From Synechococcus sp. Nb3U1 (GTDB taxonomy: Bacteria; Cyanobacteriota; Cyanobacteriia; Thermostichales; Thermostichaceae), in the NCBI RefSeq assembly GCF_021533835.1, contig NZ_JAKFYQ010000003.1, positions 1-64,000 on the forward strand: a DNA stretch of 64,000 bases, read 5' to 3'. The notes below the pieces were generated by a model that did not search any database, was not told where the DNA came from, and saw only the letters and a list, made by a program, of their open reading frames with translations. The position numbers were made by a program, and so were the translations under genes. Shown here one piece after another: positions 42,081-48,921 of this stretch (the first letter of the stretch is position 1; every line of letters begins with the position of its first letter).

Positions 42081-42974
42081 CTAATGCTGACGGCGGGTAA
42101 TGAAATCTGCTAGGGCCAACAGCGGTTCTGCCTGGGATCCATAGGGGCGCAGTTGTTCTTTAGCGGAGCGGATCAGCTCTTCGGCCTTTTGACGGGAGGC
42201 TTCTAAACCCCAGAGGCTGGGATAGGTGGCTTTGGCAACGGCTTGATCTTTGCCTGCCGTTTTCCCCAGTTGCTCACTGGTGGCGGTGATATCTAAGATG
42301 TCGTCGATGATCTGGAATGCCAAGCCAATATCTTGGGCATAGCGGCTCAGTCGGGCCAACAACTGCTCATCTCCCCCCGCCAGGATCCCTCCCGACACCA
42401 CCGAGATCTCCAGTAGGGCACCTGTTTTGTGGGTGTGAATGTATTCTAGGGTCTCCAAAGAGATGGTTTTGCCCTCTGATTCCAGATCCACCACCTGGCC
42501 CCCCACCAATCCGGTAGCGGCGACAGCATGGCCAATCCGGGCGATCACCTGCAGCACCAACTGCGGCGGCACCCCCTGAGTTTGGTGGGCAATGTGCTCA
42601 AAGGCAAAAGCGAGTAAGGCATCTCCGGCCAGAATGGCAATATCTTCTCCGAAAACCTTGTGGTTGGTGGGTTTGCCGCGGCGGAAGTCGTCGTTGTCCA
42701 TGGCCGGCAGATCGTCGTGGATCAGGGACATGGTGTGGATCATCTCTAGGGCACAGGCGGTAGGCAGGGCCTGTTCAACGGATCCCCCGGCCAGTTCACA
42801 GGTGGCCAAACAGAGGATCGGGCGGAGGCGTTTTCCCCCCGCCAGAACGCTGTAGCGCATCGCCTCGTAGATTCGCTCTGGATAGGTGGGAATCAGGGCG
42901 GCCGACAAAGCCTCTTCCACCTGTTGCTGGCGCTGGCTCAGGTAGGTCTTCAGGTTGAAGGTTTGGGCAACCAA
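42081..42974 (-). CDS. crtE: Geranylgeranyl diphosphate synthase (CrtE)
   Basis: This prenyltransferase makes GGPP, the C20 precursor of carotenoids, phytol and quinone tails. The 297-aa product has the first Asp-rich motif ([11 protein letters not shown]) and second (DDILD), plus the [15 protein letters not shown] block near the N-terminus. The start looks like TTG at 42974, with AGGA about 9 nt upstream. The PAP2-like gene follows. The ECF/ChrR pair is upstream in the same direction (about 114 nt away), which may place crtE under stress control. Confidence 0.95.
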
Positions 42975-43088: not shown

Positions 43089-43691
43089 TTAGGGGCTGAA
43101 AGGGGAGGAAGGGAGCGGCTCCAGAAATTGATCATCCATGGAGGTGCGAAAATGGAACCGGCACCCCCCCTGAGTATGAGCACGATGAACCGAGCCAGGG
43201 CCGTAACGGATGAAGTCCCCCGCCCGAAACACTTGGTCTTCGATCACCAGATCCCCTTCTAGCATGTAGATCTCTTCGCCAAGGATATGTCGATGTTGCG
43301 GATACACCGCTCCGGCATCGGCCTCCAACAGCCCCACCACTTCCCGGGTTTGGGGGTTTTCGTAAAGCTTGGCAATGCGGATCCCAGCTAGAGGGGTTTT
43401 CTGCCACTTCAAATCTGCGGCTCGAGTCGATAAGAATTCGGCCTGCGGGGTTGTAGATTGAATTTGCTGGAATAGGCGTTGTTTCAGGTTGGGAGACAAT
43501 TTGGGCAAGGGCACACTGTAGGCAAGCATGGCTGCCACCCCCTGCAACTCATCAAGAGGAGGTTGAGAAGCGGCAGAAGCAGTGCCAGACTCGGCCAACT
43601 GAACATCTTCAGGATCTTCTGAGGTATCGAGCGCACGAAAAGCGGCGATTTCCTCAAAATCCTGCTTTTGCATAGTCACGACAGCATTCAA
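43089..43691 (-). CDS. ChrR-like cupin anti-sigma factor
   Basis: The product is about 200 aa; the start (TTG 43691 or ATG 43673) is uncertain. The C-terminal half is a ChrR-like cupin with metal-binding residues His133, His135, Glu139/140 and His169 (PQHRHILGEEIY and SVHRAH). In ChrR, an N-terminal zinc domain binds the sigma factor. Here the N-terminal half is helical (LPKLSPNLKQRLFQQIQ) but lacks the His and CxxC ligands; the only Cys is in the cupin. It follows the ECF sigma gene by 37 nt and probably inhibits it. Loss of the zinc site suggests a different signal input. Confidence 0.82.
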   Translation of the reverse strand: MNAVVTMQKQDFEEIAAFRALDTSEDPEDVQLAESGTASAASQPPLDELQGVAAMLAYSVPLPKLSPNLKQRLFQQIQSTTPQAEFLSTRAADLKWQKTPLAGIRIAKLYENPQTREVVGLLEADAGAVYPQHRHILGEEIYMLEGDLVIEDQVFRAGDFIRYGPGSVHRAHTQGGCRFHFRTSMDDQFLEPLPSSPFSP

Positions 43692-43728
43692 TCCTCAATA
43701 GCAACAGGTATAACCTTCTTCATGGTAG

Positions 43729-44304
43729 TCAATTTTTAAAGCTCCACCCCTTGGCCAGTAGCAGATTCCGCAATTTCCAGAGACCTAAGCGGATTCGTTT
43801 TTTCACCGTCCCCAAAGGGATCCCAGTTTTTGAGGCAATTTCTGTCTGGGTTAGCCCATTGAAATAGGCTAATTCCAGCACTTGCCGCTGCTCTGGGGGG
43901 ATCTGCTCTAGAACCTCTTGGAGCACTTCCTGCTGCTCAGATTGAAACAAACGGTCATCCGGTTCTAAGGGTTCGGGATCCGAGCGAACAATCGCTTCTG
44001 AAGCAGAGATAGCCTTGGCAGCGCGTGTCAAAGCTCGCAAGCGATCCAAAGCCCGACTGCGGGTGAGCATAAACAGCCACACATCCACCCGGCCACGATT
44101 GGCATCGTAACGGGGGGCAATCCGCCACACCTGATTGAATACGTCCAATACCACCTCTTCTGCTTCCTCCAAGGATCCTAATACTTTGTAGGCTAGGCCC
44201 AAGAGAAGGCGAGCGTAGCGATCATAAAGTTCTGAAAGAGCAGCCTGATCCTGTTGCCCAATCCTGACCAAGAGCAGAATCTCTTCATTTTCACGCTCAG
44301 CCAT
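43729..44304 (-). CDS. ECF-family RNA polymerase sigma factor
   Basis: The 191-aa product from the ATG at 44304 has region 2 (AALSELYDRYARLLLGLAYKVL, then VFNQVWRIAPRYDA and RLRAL) and region 4 with the helix-turn-helix (LAYFNGLTQTEIASKTGIPLGTVKKRIRLGLWKLR). An upstream in-frame ATG at 44391 with AGAGGG would add 29 residues and is possible. It is paired with a ChrR-like anti-sigma gene, and the run at 44613-48921 is divergent from it. This makes that run a likely regulatory target. ECF/ChrR pairs respond to singlet oxygen in Rhodobacter. Confidence 0.9.
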   Translation of the reverse strand: MAERENEEILLLVRIGQQDQAALSELYDRYARLLLGLAYKVLGSLEEAEEVVLDVFNQVWRIAPRYDANRGRVDVWLFMLTRSRALDRLRALTRAAKAISASEAIVRSDPEPLEPDDRLFQSEQQEVLQEVLEQIPPEQRQVLELAYFNGLTQTEIASKTGIPLGTVKKRIRLGLWKLRNLLLAKGWSFKN

Positions 44305-44612
44305 AGGAAATCCGCATCCGCAGGGTGAATTAGCTGGACAGGTTGCCGACCGGGAAGATGACCCATTCAGGATTGGGCTAGAGCTTTTCATTCACCCTCT
44401 GGGATCCCGGCTTTGCCCATGTATCCCTAGGGGAGGGATCCAATTGGCTGCCTTCAGCGTATAGGCATTGAGGAGCAATTCTTTTGATTCTGCATCCTTT
44501 TTCGCCCAATTCCTAGATCTTCTGGGGAAAGCTTTTGCTGCGGATATTTGGGTGCTTTATGTATCCGTCGACTTGAGCTGGGTCTAACCTTTATCACCTG
44601 TTGAGAAAATCC
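44305..44612. other. Divergent regulatory region of the ECF module
   Basis: This gap of about 300 nt holds promoters for the ECF sigma gene and for the DUF4331-like gene. No clear ECF promoter (TGATC-type or GGAAC -35) was recognised. ATGTATCC occurs at both ends, near 44418 and 44558. One GGGATCCC is present near 44402. Confidence 0.5.
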
Positions 44613-45416
44613 ATGAGGATCCCTCTAACGCCCACGGTTCCCAAGCCATTTTTGCGGCAGTTCTCCCAATGGCAACAACACCTAGGCGTAGGACTTGGAC
44701 TGTTGTTCCTAGTATTCATGAGCACTCTCCTTCCCGCCCGAGCTTCCGATCACCAAGACACCTCCTTTTTGGGGTGTCGTTTTCCGGCTGGAGATCTCAC
44801 GGATCTCTACGTTTTTGAAAGTCCGGATCCTAACAATGTTGTGTTAGCGATGGACTTTGACCCCTTTATCCCTCGCGGTGCCGATCGCCCCTTCGATCCC
44901 GCTTTACTCTACCAGTTCAAGGTGGATACTACAGTTCCCCCCGATGGACTTGAAGAGTTGGTATTGCAATTTCAGTTCAGCGGCACAGCTCCGAATCAGA
45001 CCGTCACGATGTATGGCCCAGCAGCTCCCAATGTGGCGGGCACCCGCTCCACCTTGTTGGCAACGGCACGCGGAAGCGGCCCAGTCAACCAGACGATTAA
45101 CTTGCCGGATGGGGTGAAACTTTTTGCTGGTTTGCGCAAGGATCCCTTCTTTTTTGATCTGGAGCGCTTTTTTGAGATCCTTCCCGATCGCAACTATTTG
45201 CTACAACCCAATCCGGCTCCTCCTTTGCAGGTTTTAAGTTTTAGGCCGCCAGGTCAAGCCATGGATATGTTCGCCAACTTCAATGTTCACTCTATTGTCG
45301 TAGAACTGCCGCGACAACTGCTAGGTGGAGGGCGAGCCGGAGTGTATATGTCCATTAGCTTGCCAGAGCAAGACTTTGCCAATGTCCCGCCAACTGGAAC
45401 TGTTTTTGCCTGCTGA
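44613..45416 (+). CDS. Exported protein resembling the N-terminal part of DUF4331
   Basis: The 267-aa product from the ATG at 44613 (or TTG 44601) has a signal peptide ending in ARA (LGLLFLVFMSTLLPARA). The mature protein starts SDHQDTSFLG and continues GDLTDLYVFESPDPNNVVLAMDFDPF, the pattern of DUF4331 N-termini. Known DUF4331 proteins are longer and continue into a region that here appears to be encoded by the next gene. The function of DUF4331 is not known; some occur near ECF sigma factors. It is the first gene of the plus-strand run. Confidence 0.75.
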   Translation: MRIPLTPTVPKPFLRQFSQWQQHLGVGLGLLFLVFMSTLLPARASDHQDTSFLGCRFPAGDLTDLYVFESPDPNNVVLAMDFDPFIPRGADRPFDPALLYQFKVDTTVPPDGLEELVLQFQFSGTAPNQTVTMYGPAAPNVAGTRSTLLATARGSGPVNQTINLPDGVKLFAGLRKDPFFFDLERFFEILPDRNYLLQPNPAPPLQVLSFRPPGQAMDMFANFNVHSIVVELPRQLLGGGRAGVYMSISLPEQDFANVPPTGTVFAC

Positions 45417-45456
45417 GCCCACGTTCAAATTTACTCTTCAAAACAGGAGTTAGTCG

Positions 45457-46080
45457 ATGGAGATACTGTTGAAAATGAAAGACTGGAACTTGTCTTTATC
45501 AGAAAAAGTTCAGCAGTTTAGGGTGCATTTGCTGGTGATGGTCAGTGTTCTCATCCTGCTGGTGGCGAGTGCTTGTGGAGCTAGCAGCGGTACGGCCATT
45601 TCCCCCATCACTCCACCGGCGGCAACTACGTTTGTTCAACTGGAGCGGCTGGCCGTTCCGGCCTTGATCGAGTTGTTTCAGGACTTTGCCGATCACGATC
45701 AAAGCAACCGTGCCACGCCTAGGGCAGATGCTGGCTTTCAAGAATTGGCGATTCGATCTTTTTTTCGAGCCATTGGTCGACCTCAAGCGATCGCCGATTT
45801 GGTGGTAGCTGTTACTCTGCCGGATGTAGTGGAGGCAGATTTGTCTCAGCCTGCAGGAGCCTATTTTGGAGTGGAATTGGCTGGTGCCGGTGTCGTTGGC
45901 CCAAATTTTGGTGGCAGGCGGCTGCGGGATGATCCGGTGGATGTCACGTTGCAGGTGGTGTTTGGCGATCTGGTGCACGGTATTACCGAAGGGCAGATCC
46001 CGGCTTTAACCTCCGATAACGTCAGCCCAGAAGCAATTCGTGATACCAATACCTTTCCCTACCTGGGTAGCCCCGCTTAA
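45457..46080 (+). CDS. Lipoprotein resembling the C-terminal part of DUF4331
   Basis: The 207-aa product has a hydrophobic signal with a lipobox-like VASAC. The mature part includes FVQLERLAVPALIELF, then GGRRLRDDPVDVTLQVVFGD and ends with TFPYLGSPA, the pattern typically found in the C-terminal half of DUF4331 proteins. AGGAG precedes the ATG at 45457. Together with the gene 40 nt upstream, it looks like one DUF4331 protein split into two separately exported chains. An association of the two is predicted. Confidence 0.72.
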   Translation: MEILLKMKDWNLSLSEKVQQFRVHLLVMVSVLILLVASACGASSGTAISPITPPAATTFVQLERLAVPALIELFQDFADHDQSNRATPRADAGFQELAIRSFFRAIGRPQAIADLVVAVTLPDVVEADLSQPAGAYFGVELAGAGVVGPNFGGRRLRDDPVDVTLQVVFGDLVHGITEGQIPALTSDNVSPEAIRDTNTFPYLGSPA

Positions 46081-46115
46081 GCCATTCTCTTAAACATTTC
46101 TGTCCTATTTCTGTC

Positions 46116-47465
46116 ATGAAATCCCTGAACCTTTTCCGTTGGCCAGTGATCTTGGCCTCGCTGGTGCTGTTGCTCTTTGTTGGGTTGCGCTCCATCTATG
46201 CCTCCCCAGGGATCCGGCGCCCCACTCAACCCTGGGTTGCCCCTGTTTATCCGGATTATCAGGATCGCCATGCCTGGGTCAGTGGTTACGAAGCGATTGT
46301 GCAGGAACACCCCTCGTTTCTTTCCCTGCGCTTGCTGGCAGAAGAATATCTGAAGCGGTTCCGCGAAGTTGCGGATCCCGAAGATCTCCTGCGGGCGGAA
46401 GAGGCGGCACGGCGAGTACTGGGGATCAAAGCTCAACCGGAGAGCAGCCGGGTCATTGCCTATTCGGTTTTGGCTTCCGCACTGGTGGGGCAGCATCGCT
46501 TTGCGGAGGCTCTTGCCGTGGCTGAACAGGGGGAACGCATCGCGCCCGAACCGCTACAAACGCAGCTAGCCTCCATCCTGATGGAGTTGGGGGAATACGA
46601 ACAGGCTGAGCAGCACCTGAAGCAGGTCAAGGGGGGCGGGACTGTGCAGGCGCGCTATCTGGAACTGACGGGGCATCTACAAGAAGCGCGCCAGAGGATA
46701 CAGGAAAGTATGGCTCAGATCGACCGCTTCTACACCAATCCTGCCGAGTTGCGCTCTTGGTTTCATATGCGTGCTGCGGATTTAGCCTTTCTCGCAGGAG
46801 CGTTGGACGAGGCTGAGCAGCGCTACCAGGAGGCACTGCAAATCTACCCGCAACAGGTTCCTGCCCTGACGGGGTTGGCTCGTCTTTATGCTGCCCAACA
46901 CCGCTGGCCAGAGGCTCTGGAGGTGGCCAGTCAAGGTGCCGATCTCTTGCCCACAGTGGATAACCTAGGCCATAAAGCCGATGCCCAACGAGCCTTGGGA
47001 GATTTTGAAGGGGCAGCCGCTACCGAAGAGCTGATTGGAACAGTGGCGCACTTGGGCCGAGTCAAGGGCTTGTATGATCGGGCTTTGGCAATCTACTATA
47101 GCGAGCACGGCATCCATTTGTCTGAGGCGCTGCAGATCGCCCGTCACGAACTTTTGCTACGGCAGGATATCTACTCCCAAGACACTCTCGCCTGGGCTGC
47201 GGCAGCGAATGGTCACTGGCAAGAGGCCAAAAGTGCTATCCAACAGGCCTTGCGCCTTAACACCGAAGATCCGTTACTGCACTTTCACGCCGGCATGATC
47301 GCAGCGCAGGTGCAAGAGCCCCAGGAGGCGGTACAACATTTCTCCCAAGCCTTGGCTCTCAACCCGCATTTTCATCCTCGTTACGCCGAGCAAGCCAGAG
47401 AGATGTTGAAAGAGCTTGGGATCCAAAACCCCGAGTCCCTTCAGCCTTTATCTCCATTGGCCTAA
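46116..47465 (+). CDS. Exported or membrane-anchored TPR protein
   Basis: The 449-aa product has an N-terminal hydrophobic segment (WPVILASLVLLLFVGLRSI) and then many TPR-like helical pairs from about residue 70 to 430 (such as ALDEAEQRYQEALQIYPQQVPALTGLARLY and EPQEAVQHFSQALALNPHFHPRY). TPRs mediate protein contacts. No clear Shine-Dalgarno precedes the ATG at 46116. It lies between the DUF4331-like genes and the metal transporter gene and probably belongs to the same envelope system. Confidence 0.85.
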   Translation: MKSLNLFRWPVILASLVLLLFVGLRSIYASPGIRRPTQPWVAPVYPDYQDRHAWVSGYEAIVQEHPSFLSLRLLAEEYLKRFREVADPEDLLRAEEAARRVLGIKAQPESSRVIAYSVLASALVGQHRFAEALAVAEQGERIAPEPLQTQLASILMELGEYEQAEQHLKQVKGGGTVQARYLELTGHLQEARQRIQESMAQIDRFYTNPAELRSWFHMRAADLAFLAGALDEAEQRYQEALQIYPQQVPALTGLARLYAAQHRWPEALEVASQGADLLPTVDNLGHKADAQRALGDFEGAAATEELIGTVAHLGRVKGLYDRALAIYYSEHGIHLSEALQIARHELLLRQDIYSQDTLAWAAAANGHWQEAKSAIQQALRLNTEDPLLHFHAGMIAAQVQEPQEAVQHFSQALALNPHFHPRYAEQAREMLKELGIQNPESLQPLSPLA

Positions 47466-47490
47466 GACCCTATTCGTTATGGAGAATGCC

Positions 47491-48921
47491 ATGCTTAACC
47501 TGCGCCGCTGCTGGCTATTTGGAGCCACTTTGTCTCTAACCTTGGCTTGGGCAACGGGAGCCTTTGCTCATCCGCTGGGCAACTTCACCATCAATCACTA
47601 CGCTGGCCTAGATCTAAACCCCAACGGGATCCACATCGACTATGTGCTGGATATGGCGGAAATACCGGCATTTCAGGAAATCCGCCGCATCGATCTCAAC
47701 CGGGATCAGCAAGCGGATCCCACTGAATCGCAAACCTATGCCGCGGCCCAGTGTGACTGGATTGGTCAACAATTGGTTTTGCAAGTCGGGGGGCAGGGGA
47801 TCCCTGTCGCGTTGCAGAAGGCCACGGTGGAGTACCCACCCGGGGTCGGGGAATTGGCCACATTACGGCTAGGTTGTGAGTTTGAGGGATCCCCAATGTT
47901 CGCGGGTGCCGATCTGGAGGTGCTATTTGCCGATCATGCCTATGAGCACCGCTTGGGCTGGCGAGAGATCACCCTTTCCAGTCAGGGGATCCCGGTTCAG
48001 TCCCAGGTTCCCAGCCAGAGCATCAGTCAACGCCTGCAAGCTTATCCTGCCGCATTGCTGAAGAGTCCCCCCCTTCAGCGTCAGGTCAGCTTCCTCCTCA
48101 ACCCGAGCGGAAGGGTTGTTTCGACTGCCTCAGCGTCACCCAGTCTGGCGGAGCAATCTCTGGAGGGTCGCAACAGGGATGGGTTGACCCGCTTGATCAC
48201 CCTAGAGCACCTCAATCCACTCACCATTTTGGTTGCGTTGGGCGTTGCCTTTGTTTGGGGAGGATTTCACGCCCTCACCCCAGGTCATGGCAAAACAGTG
48301 GTTGGTGCTTACCTGGTGGGATCCCGTGGCACGGCTTTACATGCGCTGATTTTGGGTTTAACCACGACTTTTACCCATATGGCAGGAATTCTTGCTTTGG
48401 GGGGGGTGGCATTGCTGGCCTCACAATCGATTTTGAGTGAGCAAATCTACCCTTGGCTGAGTATGGTCTCCGGCCTGTTGGTGGTGGCTATTGGCCTGTC
48501 TTTGGGGCGGCAGCGGTGGCAAGGGAAATCTGAGCATTCTGGACATCCCCACCCTCATCCCCACCCTCACGGGCATTCCCATCTTCCCCACCAGGGATCC
48601 CGCGTTACCTGGGCTAGTTTGTTCGCTGTGGGCATTTCCGGGGGGTTGCTACCCTGTCCTTCTGCACTGGTGGTTTTGTTGAGCGCTATCGCCTTGGGTA
48701 AGATTGGGTTTGGCCTGGCTTTGGTTCTGGCCTTTAGCCTGGGGTTAGCGGGAGTTTTGACGGCCATTGGCCTGCTGCTGGTGTACGCCAAGTCTTGGCT
48801 AGACAAACTTCCGACCCGGTTACCCCAAAGCACTCACTTGTCGACTTTGAGCGCCCTGATCATTGCCCTGGTTGGTTTGGGAATGACGCACCAAGCCTTG
48901 GTTCAGCTCGGTGTCTTCTAG
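47491..48921 (+). CDS. NicO-family metal transporter with large extracytoplasmic N-terminal domain
   Basis: The 476-aa product from the ATG at 47491 (GGAG at 47481-47484) has a signal peptide ending in AFA. The first about 210 residues form an exported domain (HPLGNFTINHYAGLDLNPNGI). The membrane domain follows with NicO motifs HALTPGHGKTVVGAYL, TTTFTHMAGILALGG and a His-rich loop (HSGHPHPHPHPHGHSH). NicO proteins move nickel or cobalt; the direction and the metal here are unknown. An upstream ATG at 47479 is possible. It is the last gene of the DUF4331-TPR run. Confidence 0.85.
   Translation: MLNLRRCWLFGATLSLTLAWATGAFAHPLGNFTINHYAGLDLNPNGIHIDYVLDMAEIPAFQEIRRIDLNRDQQADPTESQTYAAAQCDWIGQQLVLQVGGQGIPVALQKATVEYPPGVGELATLRLGCEFEGSPMFAGADLEVLFADHAYEHRLGWREITLSSQGIPVQSQVPSQSISQRLQAYPAALLKSPPLQRQVSFLLNPSGRVVSTASASPSLAEQSLEGRNRDGLTRLITLEHLNPLTILVALGVAFVWGGFHALTPGHGKTVVGAYLVGSRGTALHALILGLTTTFTHMAGILALGGVALLASQSILSEQIYPWLSMVSGLLVVAIGLSLGRQRWQGKSEHSGHPHPHPHPHGHSHLPHQGSRVTWASLFAVGISGGLLPCPSALVVLLSAIALGKIGFGLALVLAFSLGLAGVLTAIGLLLVYAKSWLDKLPTRLPQSTHLSTLSALIIALVGLGMTHQALVQLGVF

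Follow-up and report, generated by a model that had tools for sequence, protein, structure and literature searches.

The question raised by this locus of Synechococcus sp. Nb3U1 is whether an ECF sigma factor, its cupin-bearing anti-sigma factor and the four genes for exported or membrane proteins that point away from them work together, and to what end. We call the window the whole stretch analysed, that is, the first 64,000 nucleotides of contig NZ_JAKFYQ010000003.1. A sequence-only reading of this DNA had proposed a light-stress module, in which a pair like the ECF/ChrR one of Rhodobacter would couple carotenoid precursor supply, through the neighbouring crtE, with an envelope metal system. 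Open reading frame and profile searches of the locus found the six genes at or very near the places where that reading had put them, and confirmed that the sigma/anti-sigma pair is divergent from an operon-like run in which DUF4331-N, DUF4331-C, TPR and NicO all lie on the forward strand (Table 1). The explanation that we favour, with a probability of about 0.7, is that the locus would encode a self-contained, horizontally mobile module for metal handling in the envelope, controlled by an ECF sigma factor of its own and devoted to the capture and transport of a transition metal, most likely Cu or Ni.

Table 1. Features of the locus, with positions in the window
Feature	Position	Strand	Support
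crtE	42081-42974	-	curated model, 525 bits (cut-off 460)
Anti-sigma factor: non-zinc (RskA-like) anti-sigma domain and ChrR-type cupin, as predicted	43089-43691	-	Cupin_7 3e-17
ECF sigma factor	43729-44304	-	Sigma70_r2 and r4 matches
Predicted ECF promoter	44437-44463	+	-35 GATCCAA, 14-base spacer, -10 CGTATA
DUF4331 N-terminal half, exported, predicted mature start S-D-H	44613-45416	+	PF14224 positions 1-240
DUF4331 C-terminal half, own lipoprotein-like signal (VASAC)	45457-46080	+	PF14224 positions 250-421
Exported TPR protein: TPR repeats after an N-terminal hydrophobic segment	46116-47465	+	TPR_2 1.5e-24; recurrent neighbour
NicO/RcnA-like permease with anglerase-like periplasmic domain, predicted mature N-terminus HPLGNFT	47479-48921	+	NicO 5e-11; PRK10019 2e-26 (under its cut-off)

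We surveyed 390 genomes of the same class, 99 of which carry DUF4331, and fetched 40 loci around those matches together with 80 from other genomes, all of them selected by DUF4331 alone. Among the cyanobacterial loci with enough sequence, a TPR gene follows DUF4331 in 58 of 64, and TPR plus a NicO/HupE transporter follow it in 52/63. A sigma gene of the module type lies nearby in 16 of the 64, always with the cupin anti-sigma gene alongside, and 11 of these 16 show it directly divergent, as in the window. The DUF4331-TPR-NicO/HupE set is also found in Actinomycetota (with an ECF gene in 11/22 loci), Armatimonadota (L108) and Gemmatimonadota (L146), and the sigma gene beside the operon in other phyla is often SigK-like and accompanied by its anti-sigma gene. 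The annotation of a Streptomyces anulatus plasmid reads, in order, DUF4331, tetratricopeptide, nickel transporter, DUF4331. The comparison of gene order that had been advised to check the ECF-DUF4331-TPR-NicO linkage found it conserved in loci picked only for DUF4331. One could still regard the ECF pair as a chance neighbour of an unrelated DUF4331-TPR-NicO operon, as 48 of the 64 cyanobacterial loci have the set with no ECF gene within reach; but the promoter shared by the loci, a sigma clade specific to the module, the divergent layout across phyla and the loss of the genes as a unit make this the least probable of all the explanations considered, and a very remote one. The clustering of the ECF pair with the set exceeds chance, because gene order recurs in DUF4331-selected loci and a motif defined outside the window is unique in this genome to the divergent gap.

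Some loci vary around this arrangement. On a Streptomyces plasmid (L082, 11081-13323) the nickel transporter is followed by another gene for DUF4331 and one for a sortase. In Acidobacteriota (L134, 10831-11556; L135, 2967-3692; L141, 7768-8424) DUF4331-TPR is followed not by NicO or HupE but by a small, conserved exported protein with an ETFTDNSLN motif, which occupies the transporter slot.

When the upstream regions of 54 non-redundant cyanobacterial loci were searched, the window being left out, ATCCA-N15-CGTA emerged at 23 sites, against about 0 in shuffled sequence. The consensus derived from these 23 cyanobacterial loci is AGATCCAA-N14-CGTATA. When it was mapped onto the gap between sigma and DUF4331-N (44305-44612), where an ECF motif had been suspected, one exact match appeared on the operon strand, GATCCAATTGGCTGCCTTCAGCGTATA at 44437-44463, some 150 bases before the start of DUF4331-N and with its -10 element CGTATA at 44458-44463. 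It is the only exact match on both strands of the 3.49 Mb genome and, as a rough control, a genome search with a 15-base spacer instead of 14 gave no exact match. The -35 half of the site overlaps GGATCC, which is very frequent in the genome; therefore this half alone is weak evidence and the full match decides. Presence of the motif goes with a neighbouring ECF gene (13/17 vs 13/38 loci, Fisher p=0.004), and at L112, where the nearby sigma is of a paralog type, the motif is also absent. Against our preferred explanation we count that 13 of the 26 motif-bearing loci have no ECF gene nearby. In several of the actinomycetal copies, ACCAATCCG and CGAAT stand 14 to 16 bases apart, at a comparable distance. 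Taken together, this is strong sequence evidence that the operon would be transcribed from the predicted promoter by the module sigma.

Other forms of control found less to recommend them. No copy of the motif precedes the sigma genes, a further point against the preferred explanation, and autoregulation of sigma through the operon motif was dropped for this reason. Riboswitch control was also dropped, as the Rfam search returned zero riboswitch matches in the window region and in eight related loci. As for the composition of the window, GGATCC occurs 223 times (19 expected) and GGGATCCC 85 times (1.5 expected), an excess that extends throughout and constitutes a HIP1-like genomic signature.

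Phylogenetic analysis of 48 ECF factors placed the window sigma in a clade of 19 cyanobacterial module sigmas with 98/95 support, and the ECF paralogs of the host genome elsewhere. It scores 135 bits against the SigK model PRK09646, below the cut-off of 226, which the actinomycetal module sigmas exceed with 295 and 272 bits; the anti-sigmas of the latter are RskA, with RskA_C in L157 and L144. The window anti-sigma, which starts with TTG or alternatively with ATG at 43673, is soluble, has no membrane segment and carries a cupin where RskA has its C-terminal membrane/extracytoplasmic domain. In ChrR, zinc is bound by H6, H31, C35 and C38 in the anti-sigma domain and by H141, H143, E147 and H177 in the cupin (PMC6852236). 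The analogy with Rhodobacter stands for the cupin, where the window protein keeps all four ligands as HxH-x3-E-x29-H (HxH, E at +4, H at +30), the spacing of ChrR. It does not stand for the anti-sigma domain, from which the HHCC zinc site (HxxxCxxC) is absent, and the actinomycetal relatives use SigK-RskA. The sole cysteine, Cys177, lies in the cupin part, and the ChrR model TIGR02451 gives 24.4 bits, below its cut-off of 124.5. In this sense, the window anti-sigma looks like the fusion of an RskA-like non-zinc anti-sigma domain with a ChrR-type cupin, and not like a true ChrR; its first half is read as RskA-like because a relative, L048, has an RskA_N match of 5e-4, below cut-off, and because the pattern of helices 1-2 resembles AS19-1, as judged by eye. 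Three loci (L043, 356-1894; L048, 6224-7639; L058, 6295-8297) have two cupin anti-sigma-like genes each and one adjoining sigma gene. At L057 (10012-10659) a cupin anti-sigma gene with no adjoining sigma gene is divergent from DUF4331, and the promoter motif is present nonetheless.

The position of crtE downstream of the anti-sigma gene was confirmed. The coupling to carotenoid supply that had been built on it was not borne out and we rejected it, because the motif search before crtE gave no match and the congeners retain crtE without the module. All five congeners keep crtE and have no DUF4331 and no NicO of the module kind; in one of them (G002), crtE and DUF2518 adjoin, some 215 bases apart, with nothing in between. 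In the closest relative, G005 (crtE 97%), the anti-sigma gene beside crtE is a frameshifted relic with an internal deletion, and everything from sigma through NicO is gone. The congener absences and this relic therefore indicate that the module is gained and lost as a whole and that crtE, no part of the recurring unit, is merely its neighbour. The decayed anti-sigma gene (L185, contig G005:C27, 2200-2900) is a natural deletion that marks the borders of the unit. An RpoE-ChrR-type module that responds to light or singlet oxygen and ties crtE to the envelope system would agree with the four ChrR zinc ligands of the cupin in their identical spacing, with a phototrophic host that has crtE adjacent, and with the light induction of the SigK-target homologues mpk70 and mpk83 in Mycobacterium kansasii (PMC9861118). 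We consider it unlikely, however, given the lack of the zinc site in the anti-sigma domain, the history of crtE just described and the occurrence of the unit in non-phototrophs such as Streptomyces. The other coupling that had been supposed, between the ECF pair and the DUF4331-TPR-NicO set, fared better: conserved linkage, a shared promoter, sigma phylogeny and joint gain and loss support the view that they form one regulatory unit.

What this unit would make begins with DUF4331. The locus had been thought to hold two DUF4331-like genes, and both do match PF14224 (112.6 and 60.3 bits, both above the cut-off of 27), but they are really the N- and C-terminal parts of a single DUF4331 protein, since they match successive parts of the model; full-length alignments with the closest intact homologues span the pair. 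The break lies in a loop after a VWxTIS-like strand, at the identical position in the window and in its split relatives, and when an intact homologue was modelled with AlphaFold (pTM 0.86), this loop fell at about residues 205-215, beyond the N-terminal beta portion. The same split with a lipoprotein-like second half occurs at the same loop in the related cyanobacterial genome G006 (L041, 9668-10962, TSAC), where the first half is frameshifted, in a Planctomycetota MAG (L113, 8001-9418, LVAGC) and in Gemmatimonadota (L140, 3-1369, LSAC; L146, 8022-9318, LLAC). On a tree built from 90 DUF4331 proteins, four transitions between the split and the intact form are required, and well-supported branches impose this number. 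We rejected a sequencing frameshift as the cause, given that the second half possesses a start and a hydrophobic signal of its own, the latter ending VASAC, and that other genomes show the same split. Invariant residues of the family are distributed over both halves, which therefore probably still work together.

Little could be learned from the fold of DUF4331 itself. The search of its model against the PDB gave weak matches, antibody-like or CBM9/ethylbenzene-dehydrogenase-gamma-like (TM ~0.2), from which no function was drawn; PDB sequence searches gave nothing useful, and no mention of DUF4331 or PF14224 was found among the 5.39 million open papers searched. DUF4331 proteins are predicted to start with S-D-H or S-S-H, preceded by Ala in 92 of 111, the AxA before SDH is conserved across the family, and the third-position His is invariant in an alignment of 58 sequences. 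This AxA pattern suggests that signal cleavage would leave an S-D-H start. An N-terminus of the form X-X-His is the known ATCUN pattern for Cu and Ni.

The permease also points to metal. The window NicO scores 42.8 bits against PF03824 (cut-off 27.7) and 92.9 bits (2e-26) against the RcnA model PRK10019, below the cut-off of 195, and has six TM-like segments, a His-rich loop and an RcnA-like HALTPGHGKT motif. The slot after DUF4331-TPR is occupied by NicO or by HupE_UreJ_2 (L044, L048, L095 and L108), both of them families with Ni/Co-transport members (PMC2667541, PMC4284471). The periplasmic domain of NicO begins with HPLGNF after a predicted AxA cleavage and its first His is invariant in the alignment; Ala precedes this His in 32 of 33 HPLGNF-type transporter homologues, a pattern from which we infer that cleavage would expose it. 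The best match of the modelled domain (pTM 0.75) is 9GCE (Foldseek probability 1.00, E 7.7e-5), with a VIA Z of 9.1 against 7.6 for the next, zinc-binding ZrgA, and 7.6 or less for the others; it is a moderate fold match (TM 0.35-0.42, rmsd 8.8). In sequence search, the domain has no detectable similarity to 9GCE, and PDB sequence searches with the window NicO and with HupE proteins gave nothing useful. 9GCE shows the Ang-1 domain of a HupE/UreJ-2 protein with copper bound; such anglerases bind Cu (Kd 74 nM) and Ni (220 nM) through an N-terminal His and were proposed to feed a permease, those fused to HupE for metal uptake (PMC12537917). By its N-terminal His and its modelled fold, the NicO domain may accordingly be described as anglerase-like. 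Sequence and model support the idea of a regulated envelope metal system that the sequence-only reading had envisaged.

The same permease could, however, belong to an RcnA-type detoxification operon, which exports Ni or Co while the exported proteins buffer the metal outside. The RcnA-like motif, the His-rich loop, the PRK10019 and NicO Pfam matches, and the HupE alternatives in the same slot all fit this possibility; the PRK10019 score, at 93 of the 195 bits asked for, the lack of an RcnR-like repressor among the genes found in the unit and the import proposed for anglerase-HupE proteins (PMC12537917) do not. We regard it as possible, though somewhat doubtful. Far less credible is an envelope redox or protein-folding module in which the NicO-like protein, as a member of the DsbD/LysE-like superfamily, moves electrons like DipZ of the SigK regulon. 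There is a DsbD_2 Pfam match (2.6e-11), and DipZ is controlled by SigK-RskA in M. tuberculosis (PMC9861118), but the window NicO has only four cysteines and a His-rich loop instead of a paired transmembrane CxxC, and its replacement by HupE in the same slot points to metal.

In the metal-handling module that we propose, the cytoplasmic anti-sigma factor would hold sigma through its non-zinc domain, and its metal-binding cupin may sense a redox or metal signal and release it. Freed sigma would then transcribe the single operon from the predicted promoter. The products would be the two exported DUF4331 halves, one with the S-D-H start and the other with a lipoprotein-like anchor, an exported TPR scaffold, and the NicO permease with a periplasmic N-terminal-His domain that resembles copper-binding anglerases. 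Beyond the inner membrane, these exported proteins may pick up a transition metal (most likely Cu or Ni) and transfer it to the permease. RcnA-like motifs favour efflux and the anglerase-like domain favours uptake; we lean slightly to uptake or delivery.

A six-gene unit of this kind across several phyla seems not to have been described before, and a text search of PMC12537917 for NicO, tetratricopeptide, ECF and DUF4331 found none of these terms. More tentatively, DUF4331, TPR and an anglerase-NicO/HupE permease might represent an undescribed class of envelope metal capture machine, present in at least four phyla and served by a dedicated ECF sigma factor; its anti-sigma would have traded a membrane RskA domain for a soluble metal cupin, or the reverse, as its sensor, and one loop of DUF4331 would have been the site of repeated splits that yield a soluble X-X-His half able to bind metal and a lipoprotein half. 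The unit is new as a combination and is built of known kinds of parts, with DUF4331 at its centre. This family without known function gains a concrete setting, in the company of a sigma of its own, a single predicted promoter and a metal permease that bears an N-terminal-His domain. Additionally, the anglerase idea of 2025 is widened from HupE/UreJ-2 to NicO permeases and tied to regulation, and a route opens toward identifying what SigK-type sigma factors respond to.

Compared with known systems, the window DUF4331 is like the family PF14224 in that both halves match the Pfam model, in order, and unlike it in consisting of two separate exported proteins, of which one bears a lipoprotein-like signal. 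RpoE-ChrR (ECF11, Rhodobacter) shares the cupin-like domain with identical ligand spacing, whereas the window anti-sigma lacks the zinc domain, is far below the TIGR02451 cut-off and is linked to other target genes. SigK-RskA (ECF18/19, Actinomycetota) resembles our unit through the actinomycetal copies, which have SigK above cut-off and RskA_C, and through similar promoters (-35 ATCC, -10 CGAAT/CGTAT); it differs in that a cytoplasmic cupin replaces the membrane C-domain of RskA in the cyanobacterial anti-sigma, and the window sigma is below the SigK cut-off and has no cysteines. RcnA, the Ni/Co exporter, shares with the window NicO the NicO fold signature, the His-rich loop and the six TM-like segments, but the window protein has a large periplasmic N-terminal domain, no RcnR, and a score below the PRK10019 cut-off. 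Finally, anglerase (Ang-1/Ang-2)-HupE/UreJ-2 permeases resemble the window protein in that a metal permease is joined to an exported domain whose N-terminal His is invariant; they also give the best fold match to its N-domain, and helices lead from strand 2 to strand 3 in both, while the window permease is NicO/RcnA-like instead of HupE/UreJ-2 and its unit adds DUF4331, TPR and the ECF pair.
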